Positions 52,002 to 55,261 of a stretch of 64,000 bases of DNA are shown in pieces. The notes beneath the pieces were generated by a model. It did no database searches. It had not been told where the DNA came from and saw only the letters and a program-made list of their open reading frames with translations. The first letter of the stretch is position 1. Each line of letters starts with the position of its first letter. Origin of the DNA: Capnocytophaga sp. ARDL2 (GTDB lineage: Bacteria > Bacteroidota > Bacteroidia > Flavobacteriales > Flavobacteriaceae). The stretch spans positions 744,001 to 808,000 of the forward strand of contig NZ_CP168034.1 in NCBI RefSeq assembly GCF_041530365.1, read 5' to 3'. Made by a program: the position numbers and the translations under genes.

Positions 52002-52928
52002 ATGAGTGGAGAAATTTCTAAATTAATAGGAGAAAGAGGAGAAGCAATAGCAAAATATATATTCGAAGAAATTTTTGGCTATGAGAACAATCTGTCAGGA
52101 AATGAAATAATGTGTCTTAATGGTGAAGAACATAAAAGAAGTGCTGCTAAAAAAGAAAGAACAACACACGGAATAGATGGCTTGATTGGCAATATAAGTC
52201 AGTTGTCAAATCGAGTTTTGGATATAGGTTACATATCTGTTAAAAAAACAGAAAAGATAGGGTATAACAAGACTGATCTTAGAAAACATATATCTGACAT
52301 CTCTCAAGGATTAGAATGCTTTAATAAAAGTAAAGTGTTATCTGATTTTAAAAGAAGATATTCCAACATAAGAAGTTCTGAAGTTCTTGGGATTTTGGTT
52401 TGGATTTCAGATAAAGATGACATTTATGATTCTATCCAAAATTACATAAAAGATATAAGCATTACCTCCTCCTTAACTAACACTATTATCATTTTAGATA
52501 ATAGAAGATTATCTTTTTTTATAGAAACTGTTTTACAAGATAAAAAAATATATAAGAAGGAAAAAGTTAAATTTGTATATCATAATTCAGGGTTAAATCC
52601 ATCAATTCAATCATACTATGGAGAAAAATTACCTTTTTTCTATCTTTATTCAAATATCATAGCAGTAAGAATTGAAGATAATGACAATGTATTTTTAAAA
52701 ATTTATTATTCTGAGGAATTTCAAGAAAATGTTTTTCGAGGAATGATGGATTTAGCAATAGACTATGATAAATTGGACTCTTTAGACAAGATAATCTTTT
52801 CGTTTCGTAATTATCAAAAATCTAAACACGAAAGAATGATAGATGAGATTTTGATAGAATACAATTCTTATATAAAAACGAGTAAAATAGAAATTTTAGG
52901 GCATATTCAAACATTGAAGAATTTATGA
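52002..52928 (+). CDS. GapS4a-like putative nuclease of an antiphage pair
   Basis: A 308-residue protein, very AT-rich. The N-terminal half reads GERGEAIAKYIFEEIFGYE, THGIDGLIGN and DIGYISVKKTEK, an arrangement (conserved Glu, then GID, then xSVK) like a PD-(D/E)xK nuclease core. LGILVWISDKDDIYDSI follows. From memory this resembles GapS4a, a subunit of the two-gene GAPS4 defence system; I cannot verify that here. The C-terminal half has no motif that I know. It overlaps the next gene by 4 bp (ATGA), so the two are translated together. Confidence 0.6.
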   Translation: MSGEISKLIGERGEAIAKYIFEEIFGYENNLSGNEIMCLNGEEHKRSAAKKERTTHGIDGLIGNISQLSNRVLDIGYISVKKTEKIGYNKTDLRKHISDISQGLECFNKSKVLSDFKRRYSNIRSSEVLGILVWISDKDDIYDSIQNYIKDISITSSLTNTIIILDNRRLSFFIETVLQDKKIYKKEKVKFVYHNSGLNPSIQSYYGEKLPFFYLYSNIIAVRIEDNDNVFLKIYYSEEFQENVFRGMMDLAIDYDKLDSLDKIIFSFRNYQKSKHERMIDEILIEYNSYIKTSKIEILGHIQTLKNL

Positions 52929-54031
52929 TAAAGAAAGTTCCACAAGGTGATTTATTAAGGCAATACCTATTGAAAAGTTCTATAAATCAAAATCTTTTAT
53001 TTACATTATTAAAAAATAGAGGGGTTTTACTGAAATCTAAGAAAAAAGAAACTACATTGCCGTATTTTTTAAAAACAATAGTTGATGCTGAGATTTTTGA
53101 TGAAATCCAAATGAAAGATTCTATTAAAGAAAAGCGACCAAAATTTACAAATGCATCAATTAAACTTAAAGAAAATTTTGAAGTAGAAAGATTAACAGAT
53201 TTAAAATTGAATTTACATTCAGATTTAATTGAAAATAAAGAGTTTAGATTAAATTATAGCTTTAAAAATGAACCTCAATTTTATGTTGATTTCGGAGAAG
53301 ACAAACAGAAAAAAGTTTCATTAGACATTGAAATAACGATAGAAAATCCATTAGAAAATTTTGGTTCGACACAGGTGGATAGAACTGCTAAAATTGATAT
53401 TGTACAAGAAGGAAATTCATTAATTATTAATAAAAATTATACGTCTCCTGAAACAAAAGAAATTATTGATTTTGTTGTAGGAAAGATTAGAACACATTTA
53501 AAACAAGAGGATTATATCAATAAAGAAGACGATTTTATTTCAATAAGATTTAATGATTTTGATAATAAAACGAGAGTTGAGTTTTTAAAATCGTTTAAAT
53601 TTTTGAATGAAAAAATAAAATACAAATCTATTATAGATGCAGATATAGAGTGTAAGGAAAAGTATGATAACATCGACAAATTATTAGAAAGTATTTCTAA
53701 TATGAAAATAAAAGGTAATTTAGAGAAACATCCTTTTTTAACTGATGAAGAGTATTATTCGAAAATAATTCTTTATTGCATAAAGATTGAATATGAATTC
53801 GATTTAGGTTTAGAAAAAGGAGAGTTTATTTTGGAATTATCTTTTCCTGAATTTGATTCTGAATCAGAAGAAGAGAATTATTCTAATCCTATCTTTCAAT
53901 TTTCAATTAATGTAACTAATTGCAATAATAAAGACAATATTAATAGGATAACCAATAAATTAGCTTTGCTTGTTGAAAAATATAAAAATGAAGTTTATAA
54001 TAGTATCATAGTATCCAACAGAAAAGACTGA
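52925..54031 (+). CDS. GapS4b-like partner protein
   Basis: A 368-residue protein starting MIKKVPQGDLLRQYLLKSSI, with LLKNRGVLLKSKKKETTLP and FLKTIVDAEIFDEIQ, which I match from memory to the GapS4b N-terminal pattern (GDxLRxxLxKS, RGI, xxxIP). The rest is beta-rich and acidic, ending in a helical segment. It is coupled to the preceding gene. The pair lies in a cluster of RM genes, which supports a defence role. If the match is wrong this remains an uncharacterised two-gene unit. Confidence 0.6.
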   Translation: MIKKVPQGDLLRQYLLKSSINQNLLFTLLKNRGVLLKSKKKETTLPYFLKTIVDAEIFDEIQMKDSIKEKRPKFTNASIKLKENFEVERLTDLKLNLHSDLIENKEFRLNYSFKNEPQFYVDFGEDKQKKVSLDIEITIENPLENFGSTQVDRTAKIDIVQEGNSLIINKNYTSPETKEIIDFVVGKIRTHLKQEDYINKEDDFISIRFNDFDNKTRVEFLKSFKFLNEKIKYKSIIDADIECKEKYDNIDKLLESISNMKIKGNLEKHPFLTDEEYYSKIILYCIKIEYEFDLGLEKGEFILELSFPEFDSESEEENYSNPIFQFSINVTNCNNKDNINRITNKLALLVEKYKNEVYNSIIVSNRKD

Positions 54032-54093
54032 GAAGATACGTTGCAATCAAGTAAAAAATATTATCAAAAATAATTTTATTAAAACCATTTCCC

Positions 54094-54101
54094 TATATTT
54101 G
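54094..54101 (+). promoter_or_regulatory. -7 box directing transcription into the 42-bp palindrome array
   Basis: TATATTTG fits the TAnnTTTG consensus. A transcript starting about 6 nt later would begin exactly at the first palindrome. The -33 region has only a T-rich stretch (54074-54080). Confidence 0.6.
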
Positions 54102-54107
54102 TGGCTG

Positions 54108-54289
54108 TTATGATTTCATAAATCATAAAGCGTAAGTAAAAGTATAGAATTATGAAAGCATAAAAACTCCAACGGAAATATGGGCGACCAATTATGAATG
54201 CATAATTAACTAAAAACAGAAGAAAACAATCCATTATGAATGCATAAATGTTTGGAAAGGGAACAAAGCAAGTATTTATGCAAACATAT
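54108..54289 (+). repeat. array of five TTATGnnnnCATAA palindromes at an exact 42-bp period
   Basis: Palindromes lie at 54108 (TTATGATTTCATAA), 54150 (TTATGAAAGCATAA), 54192 and 54234 (TTATGAATGCATAA) and 54276 (TTATGCAAACATAT, last base deviating). Every start is exactly 42 bp from the previous one. The four 28-bp spacers are unrelated in sequence. Each of the first four repeats also reads as a three-codon frame ATG-xxx-xCA-TAA. The array fills the gap between a promoter-like box and the DUF6261 gene. Sites for a regulator (42 bp is four helical turns), RNA hairpins or micro-ORFs are all possible. Confidence 0.85.
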
Positions 54290-54324
54290 ACCATAAAAAG
54301 TACAATCACTTAATTTTACCAATT

Positions 54325-55026
54325 ATGAAAAATTTACATTTCAACTCCAGAGTTACCGAAGTAGGCGATGTAGCCAATCGATTGGCAGACCTTTACAAAG
54401 GTACTGCTACCTTGCAAGACGATGCTTTTTTGAAAACCTTTTTTAAAGAATTAAAAACCCAAGGCGATGCCATCACCGAAGCCGTAAAGCGCGACAAAGC
54501 CGTATCACAGCTCGAAGATGCCGATGCCCAAAGAGACGAAGCCATTCGCGTGTTGGACAAGCTCCTAAAAGGCTATGAACACATCCCTGTGCAAGAGCTC
54601 AACGCTCACGGCAAAAAACTCTCTGCCATCTTTAAGAAATACGGCGTGAAAATCACCGAGGAAAATTATTCCAGTCAGTCTAACCTTGTAGATTCGTTGC
54701 TCAAAGACTTGTCGGCGGCGGAGGTGCAAGATGCTATTACGGCACTTTTGGGCGTTAGCGAGGCAATAGCAGGGATTCGTACAGCACAAAACAATTTTAA
54801 CAAAGTGCGTAGCCAGTACGAAAAGGATTTTGCACAGCAACAAAGCAAAGCCTCTGCCAGTAGCCTAAGAAAACCGCTTTTGCAACTTATCAACAAAAAA
54901 CTGATTCCGTATTTGGTAGCAATGATGCTCGTTGATGAAGCAAAATACACCGCTTTTGTGAGTGAAACATCCAAAATCATCGACGATATGAACGAGGTGG
55001 TCAAAGCCCGAGGCAAGAAAAAATAA
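54325..55026 (+). CDS. DUF6261-family protein
   Basis: A 233-residue, almost entirely helical protein: FNSRVTEVGDVANRLADLYK, KTQGDAITEAVKRDKAVSQLEDADAQRDEAIRVLDKLLKGYEH (about 52-95), KLSAIFKKYGVKITEENYSSQ and a C-terminal ITALLGVSEAIAGIRTAQNNF...ASSLRKPLLQLINKKLI. This matches the DUF6261 family of Bacteroidota, of unknown function. Its GC content is clearly higher than that of the GAPS4-like genes before it. The start context CCAATTATGAAAA resembles the repeats of the array in its leader. I expect control through that array. Confidence 0.75.
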   Translation: MKNLHFNSRVTEVGDVANRLADLYKGTATLQDDAFLKTFFKELKTQGDAITEAVKRDKAVSQLEDADAQRDEAIRVLDKLLKGYEHIPVQELNAHGKKLSAIFKKYGVKITEENYSSQSNLVDSLLKDLSAAEVQDAITALLGVSEAIAGIRTAQNNFNKVRSQYEKDFAQQQSKASASSLRKPLLQLINKKLIPYLVAMMLVDEAKYTAFVSETSKIIDDMNEVVKARGKKK

Positions 55027-55087
55027 TTGTATATAATCAAATGTTCATTTGACCCTTTTTTTTGTTTTGATAGAGGTAGAAAAATTG

Positions 55088-55135
55088 TAAACCACATAGA
55101 AATATAGAGTAAAATCTATGTATCTATGTGGTTTA
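55088..55135 (+). terminator. long hairpin behind the DUF6261 gene
   Basis: TAAACCACATAGA pairs with TCTATGTGGTTTA around a 22-nt loop. It may terminate the array/DUF6261 transcript. Confidence 0.6.
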
Positions 55136-55261
55136 ACTATAAATAGTACCCAAAATAATATTTAACGTGTTTAACTTTTTCCGCTCATAATTTTCTTCTT
55201 TACATCATAATTTTGCAAGTACAGCTTTTCCGTTGTAAATTTGTCGAGGTTGAAAAGATAA

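Follow-up and report, generated by a model that had tools for sequence, protein, structure and literature searches.

Genes of the protein family DUF6261 (PF19775) are preceded, in many Bacteroidota, by arrays of short palindromes that recur every 41 or 42 bp, and this pattern is family-wide. The palindrome itself is specific to the DUF6261 locus in front of which it lies, and matching arrays are also found elsewhere in some of these genomes, suggesting that repeat and protein are paired in a way not seen before. In the reading that we favour, and which stands about an even chance of being right, the array acts in cis and provides the DUF6261 gene with helically phased recognition sites, read by a locus-specific factor that is likeliest the DUF6261 protein. 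The array was initially annotated in a 64-kb stretch of DNA from Capnocytophaga sp. ARDL2 (hereafter the window; its genome is G000). In the portions of the literature searched (including PMC5771137, PMC2817692, PMC3733652 and PMC12306157), which covered HagB and palindromic repeats of Bacteroidetes, Chryseobacterium, Capnocytophaga and Flavobacterium and outside of which most subscription papers lie, no published description of palindrome arrays linked to DUF6261 was found; the name DUF6261 turned up there in a single paper, about Streptococcus.

The array of the window extends from 54108 to 54289, as delimited by palindrome matches and a chain search, and comprises five units with a period of 42 bp and four 28-bp spacers. 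Four of the units are exact TTATGnnnnCATAA palindromes, namely unit 1 (TTATGATTTCATAA, 54108-54121), unit 2 (TTATGAAAGCATAA, 54150-54163) and units 3 and 4 (both TTATGAATGCATAA, 54192-54205 and 54234-54247), whereas the fifth (TTATGCAAACATAT, 54276-54289) carries one mismatch. The initial annotation had described an exact 42-bp array with these five starts, and this is confirmed, every step measuring 42 bp. It had also proposed a promoter-type sequence from which transcription would start at the first repeat; TATATTTG, a match to TAnnTTTG, which we take to be the Bacteroidota-type promoter consensus, is indeed present on the + strand at 54094-54101, 13 bp 5′ of the first scored arm. The proposed likeness of the start-codon context to a repeat is weak, its TTATG lying 5 bp out of register and having no right arm. 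No other chain of at least three like palindromes at 39-44 bp occurs in the window, and none of 1000 dinucleotide shuffles of 54032-54324 produced one. Pattern counts are not significant alone (seven matches with at most one mismatch versus 4.9 expected); the improbable part of the array is its regular spacing, not the number of palindromes. The four bases 5′ of the five palindromes are GCTG, AGAA, CCAA, TCCA and GTAT. The four spacers had been said to lack any common sequence, and in fact they share little, with a mean pairwise identity of 0.375 versus 0.328 ± 0.031 after shuffling (8.4% of shuffles were as high), though an origin as diverged tandem copies is hinted at.

DUF6261 genes were gathered from the genome of the window, its genus, its family and its phylum, together with one further genus rich in them; genomes with DUF6261 numbered 3 of 61 in the genus, 8 of 299 in the family, 12 of 395 in the phylum and 56 of 118 in the DUF6261-rich genus. 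From the latter, 60 of 82 further matches (119 rows) were taken from the top, a few being skipped by hand. Dropped before extraction were L031 (identical to L001), L041 (Ns), L015 (stops), L016 and L042 (below the cut-off), L002 (a remnant) and L003 and L004 (doubles), and removal of L035, L064, L103 and L116 (short or truncated frames) left 127 of 131 leaders. Of 30 close-relative loci 23 were used, with L229 (a double of L001) and six partial matches set aside; among those 23, L243, L237, L248 and L256 (wrong frame) were left out as well. L039 stands outside the unit-step analysis and, like the A/T-tract chains L022 and L034, outside the half-site and promoter analyses.

Leaders of 450 bp were examined by counting palindrome positions regardless of their sequence. 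In the 127 leaders, pairs of palindrome centres peaked at lags of 41 bp (26 pairs) and 42 bp (27 pairs), with smaller peaks at 21 (14) and 82-84 (14, 8 and 17) and 1-10 pairs at other lags. No 41/42 peak was seen in the 450 bp downstream of the same 127 genes (1 and 0 pairs) or in the DUF6261 gene bodies, and 400 kb of random control stretches gave 10, 12 and 11 pairs at lags 40-42 versus a mean of 6.6, one orphan array included. A strict detector, defined by at least three like palindromes at 39-44 bp, found arrays in 37 of the 127 leaders, many of which are orthologues and hence not independent events, versus three at 20-25 bp, one at 74-79 bp and none in nine other spacing ranges; ten rounds of shuffled leaders yielded no array. 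With a relaxed detector (40-43 bp, lowest threshold) the arrays rose to 70 of 147 leaders, versus 0-1 in seven control ranges, and at a threshold of 4.0 it still found 41, versus none in the control ranges; the other 77 of the 147 leaders had no array even under the relaxed detector. The check proposed in the initial annotation, to look for the period in collected DUF6261 leaders, thus had a strongly positive outcome with both detectors and in the lag peaks. One leader with an array by the relaxed detector only (L040) belongs to a Melioribacteraceae genome, as judged by protein identity to a named record, and therefore the pattern reaches beyond Flavobacteriia. The second DUF6261 gene of the window's genome also has a 42-bp array, of different sequence and farther from the start codon.

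A closer view of 44 arrays, among which the A/T-tract chain L022 is still counted, shows that 113 of 116 unit steps measure 41 bp (45) or 42 bp (68), the other three being different. Either length corresponds to about four helical turns, and the step is kept even where spacers are only ~25% identical (L259, L053 and L079). Identity within arrays is 0.56 for the spacers and 0.91 for the arms, the latter being partly built in, because an array is detected only if its arms are alike and pair. Spacer identity is below 0.3 in seven of the 44 arrays and at least 0.48 in 30, as expected of diverged tandem copies; the initial annotation had held that such copies would speak against its proposal, and they are what most of the family has, while in the window they are only hinted at. 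In seven arrays spacer identity is at least 0.81 and nearly the whole unit is repeated, so that the palindrome may be incidental there; these include the second DUF6261 array of the window's genome, in which the dyad is imperfect. By eye, orthologue alignments show conserved arms and partly conserved spacers, one orthologue group has a second dyad half-way through the unit, in line with the 21-bp lag peak, and L231 and L232 differ in copy number by two 42-bp units, both like the neighbouring ones. Because 42 bp equal 14 codons, the arrays of L199 (4412-4924) and L170 give rise to long reading frames, which are probably spurious. The serial micro-ORFs that the initial annotation had considered are not general, since ATG and stop are missing from, for example, the L059, L060 and L012 palindromes.

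The sequence of the palindrome changes between close relatives. The half-site is TTATG in the window and TTCACT in L001 of Capnocytophaga cynodegmi (TTCACT...AGTGAA), whose protein is 73% identical to the window's; L230, at 74% identity, has GGACATTTGTCC (half-site GGACAT), and at 76% L259 has TTCACT again, with spacers that by eye are unlike those of L001. Across 42 arrays, palindrome similarity follows protein identity only loosely, with a Mantel r of 0.30, a value reached in none of 2000 permutations. Similarity by protein-identity bin is uneven (0.37, 0.37, 0.52, 0.42, 0.50, 0.39, 0.52, then 0.66 at 80-95%, n = 8, and 0.79, n = 1), being highest among near-identical proteins, whereas pairs that are 60-70% identical reach 0.39 versus a background of 0.37. 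Moreover, several DUF6261 genes in one genome come with several palindromes, as seen for L043 versus L051/L052 in genome G650, L058 versus L109 in G744 and L060 versus L126 in G832, and in G865 strict arrays occur in four of 14 leaders examined, with four different sequences.

The DUF6261 gene of the window (54325-55026, + strand) encodes 233 amino acids and matches PF19775 at 79.5 bits (cut-off 27), the only family found in the protein by Pfam profile search. Its AlphaFold model is predicted to be all-alpha (mean pLDDT 90.8, pTM 0.66), and fold comparison gave no informative relatives and no known DNA-binding fold among the matches listed. With a median pI of 7.7 (n = 146), DUF6261 proteins are not particularly basic. 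In UniRef, several Capnocytophaga members carry the name ‘Hemagglutinin protein HagB’. Some genomes have many copies; among 20 genomes, the highest number of relatives of the window protein was 17. The window gene sits in a defence island with GapS4a/b-like genes, a type I methylase that has a specificity domain, type III restriction-modification genes and RhuM; the two genes directly upstream (52002-54031) match the anti-phage GapS4a and GapS4b models at 230.9 and 215.4 bits, below the NCBIfam cut-offs of 270 and 300.

Elsewhere the surroundings vary. Among 72 neighbour ORFs of 18 DUF6261 loci, the only mutual matches were between L162 and L170, which share an efflux gene pair, and between two GTPase-like proteins, and no neighbouring gene was common to more than two of these loci. 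Some DUF6261 genes lie within operons, for instance between MoxR and DUF58 (L161) or 5′ of CysD/CysN-like genes (L163), and one (L174, genome G724) lies between Cas9 and Cas1-Cas2 in the same direction. At the cys operon, the genome of L263 is without a stretch of ~1.15 kb that holds leader, gene and ~100 bp after it, directly behind a shared promoter-like stretch, and the genomes of L261 and L262 show wider differences at the same place. L265 and L266 show, by eye, further short repeats of ~21-bp period, TTGACGTCAGAAA-like and TTGCCCGAA-like, which lie near CysD or upstream of it. In Capnocytophaga canis all that is left of DUF6261 is its 3′ end (L002, 3001-3063), followed by flanking DNA that resembles the window's, and a SAM-I/IV riboswitch match lies downstream of the C. 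cynodegmi gene (L001, 4829-4927).

Arrays away from DUF6261 genes, with palindromes or units matching DUF6261 leaders, were found in three genomes, that of the window (G000), G650 and G865. In a count of tandem pairs, the window's palindrome occurs at two places in G000, and a second array with this palindrome and a 42-bp period lies 283 kb away, at C1:1081649-1081872, between convergent genes. The palindrome in its central units is mostly TTATGCATTCATAA, and the outer units have sequences resembling TTTACTGGAGTGAA, the Capnocytophaga palindrome; both palindromes fill the same slot in an otherwise near-identical 42-bp unit. G650 holds orphan arrays like its leader L052 and one palindrome pair like L043, while 400 kb of the DUF6261-rich G865 contain five arrays, of which one belongs to a DUF6261 leader, three are intergenic orphans and the fifth lies within a coding repeat. 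In G311 there is no orphan pair of its TTCACT palindrome, and 400 kb from seven genomes of the window's genus in which no DUF6261 was detected gave no array. Twenty control stretches of 20 kb (12 from G650, eight from G000) contained one array at 39-44 bp, an orphan like the G650 leader L052; at other spacings these stretches had a single chain, at 30-35 bp, and G865 had two, at 30-35 bp and at 48-53 bp.

Six orphan arrays, a small sample, were compared with 164 leaders, four of them found blind and two by searching for known palindromes. Three of the four blind orphans match a leader of their own genome best (the G650 orphan at 1319 kb L052, and the G865 orphans L319 and L332 L341 and L251, respectively), and the fourth, L320, matches only leaders of other genomes. 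For the two palindrome-searched arrays the matches are partly by construction: for the G000 orphan the best leader is the window's own (E 1.6e-5), and the array at 2444 kb in G650 is closest to L096 and L097 of other genomes, with L052 of its own genome third. Two of the six orphans lie between convergent genes and four upstream of another gene, so that these four may control other genes.

Some arrays have a promoter-like element beside them, which may be on either side: TAnnTTTG precedes the array at some loci and follows it at others, and at many it was not found. It stands 11-15 bp 5′ of the array in four of 42 (the window and, at 11, 12 and 15 bp, L001, L059 and L230; ~1.6 expected by density) and within 60 bp after it in ten of 42, mostly from one subfamily (4.3 expected by density). 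The order of promoter-like element, array and gene in the former four would suit an RNA-level device, in which hairpins of a transcribed leader control expression or act as antitoxin RNA. Type III toxin-antitoxin systems have tandem units of ~40 bp directly before the gene, resembling the DUF6261 arrays in unit length and copy number. Such a device is nevertheless quite improbable. An array upstream of the promoter-like element is outside the mRNA from that element, and the chain of RNA hairpins offered by the initial annotation is weak here, since the hairpins of the folded window leader reach -0.3 to -0.9 kcal/mol each, all weaker than -1 kcal/mol, and the whole leader has a z of -1.68. No terminator-like site on the + strand and no Rfam match was found in 53900-55200. 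Within arrays, arm positions show one-sided changes in 49 cells (15 of them G-T), two-sided changes that are compensatory in two and of another kind in four, so that base pairing is seemingly not what is kept. Furthermore, the window conserves a short dyad and not the whole unit as type III antitoxins do, its spacers not being conserved. Type III toxins have the ToxN/AbiQ-type fold; the DUF6261 model is all-alpha and gave no informative match. Short palindromic repeats with unlike spacers of fixed length also recall CRISPR, and the initial annotation had seen in their fixed length and variable content the logic of an information-storing array, the spacers of which would be acquired from other DNA. 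This found no support, and we hold it to be extremely improbable: the four window spacers, trimmed to 22-24 nt, had no exact match in viral contigs (IMG/VR), an absence that alone is weak evidence; plasmids and phages gave only pieces of 26-40 bp at E values of 0.06 or worse; no cas gene was found among the window genes scanned; and both the spacers of 30 of 44 arrays, which look like diverged copies of each other, and the units by which L231 and L232 differ are signs of growth by unit duplication.

Two other readings were considered. A regulator encoded elsewhere could read each palindrome, DUF6261 being just one regulated gene; no DNA-binding domain is recognisable in the family, promoter-like elements directly adjoin some arrays and the four orphans upstream of another gene look regulon-like, but the different palindromes of one genome would call for several dedicated unlinked factors, and the two orphans between convergent genes fit poorly, so that we consider this reading unlikely. 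Rather unlikely, too, is a selfish satellite of the REP/BIME kind, whose units would be spread by recombination or a mobility enzyme, with DUF6261 as a passenger or mobility helper and no regulatory role. It could draw on the homology of orphan and leader arrays across whole units, on the copy-number change between L231 and L232, on the presence and absence of array plus gene at the cys operon and on the two palindromes sharing one slot in the G000 orphan, yet free duplication would hardly keep a 41/42-bp unit while spacers diverge to ~25% identity. REP-RAYT systems have a gene for a Y1/HUH tyrosine transposase and number tens to hundreds of repeat copies in each genome. Further marks of these systems are a gene between two repeats in inverted orientation (PMC2817692) and a GTAG or CGTC tetranucleotide head (PMC3733652). 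The DUF6261 arrays are like REP/BIME and RAYT systems in forming short intergenic palindrome clusters, in the occurrence of a gene's repeat elsewhere and in having several repeat types per genome; on the other hand, they lie in the leader only and not on both sides of the gene, keep a strict unit length and, in the window, have neither head. The Y1/HUH transposase (PF01797) was found in five of the ten genomes searched and was absent from that of the window, and 18 of 19 Y1 loci were without an array. A weak Y1_Tnp (RAYT-like) gene adjoins a DUF6261 gene at G650:C1:415693-415893 and at G744:C11:432622-432813.

DNA recognition by a symmetric factor is favoured by the whole-turn spacing, the conserved arms with few compensatory changes, the free spacers in many arrays, the weak window hairpins and the promoter positions on both sides, and among the readings of the initial annotation its four-helical-turn operator array fits best. 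Helically phased operator arrays and plasmid iterons display, near the promoter of a gene, repeats or dyads that share a single DNA face and have a gene-specific sequence. The DUF6261 dyads are likewise spaced by whole turns (lags of 21, 41/42 and 82-84; 113 of 116 steps), whereas they are chromosomal, at a four-turn spacing (two-turn in some loci), their palindrome switches between close relatives, and the protein has no known initiator or repressor domain. A symmetric factor would read the palindrome as a dimer and bind the units side by side on one DNA face, and the bound array, often beside a promoter, would set DUF6261 expression. The differing palindromes within one genome, together with the lack of a neighbour common to more than two of 18 loci, make the DUF6261 protein the likeliest factor, even though it carries no recognisable DNA-binding domain; the cognate orphan arrays, added to the gene-specific palindromes and the absence of a constant neighbour, likewise make it the best candidate. 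Orphan arrays may then be further binding sites that control other genes, act by titration or mark the chromosome. We infer this binding, the autoregulation and the role of the orphans from sequence patterns.

A wider proposal, possible but doubtful, is that DUF6261 and its arrays make up a self-specifying system of repeat and protein that has no transposase, in which each protein would read its own palindrome, specificity would switch fast between close relatives, cognate arrays would be seeded elsewhere in the chromosome and the unit of gene and array would come and go between operons. If true, Bacteroidota would have dispersed elements of a new class, whether DNA-addressing or selfish. The DUF6261 protein family is unexplained, and with the array there is now a function for it that can be tested; the locus-specific palindromes, in turn, are a ready-made matched set for learning how specificity changes jointly in a protein and its site. 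The same arrays could account for a class of intergenic repeats of Bacteroidota that might otherwise pass as reading frames, REPs or remnants of CRISPR.
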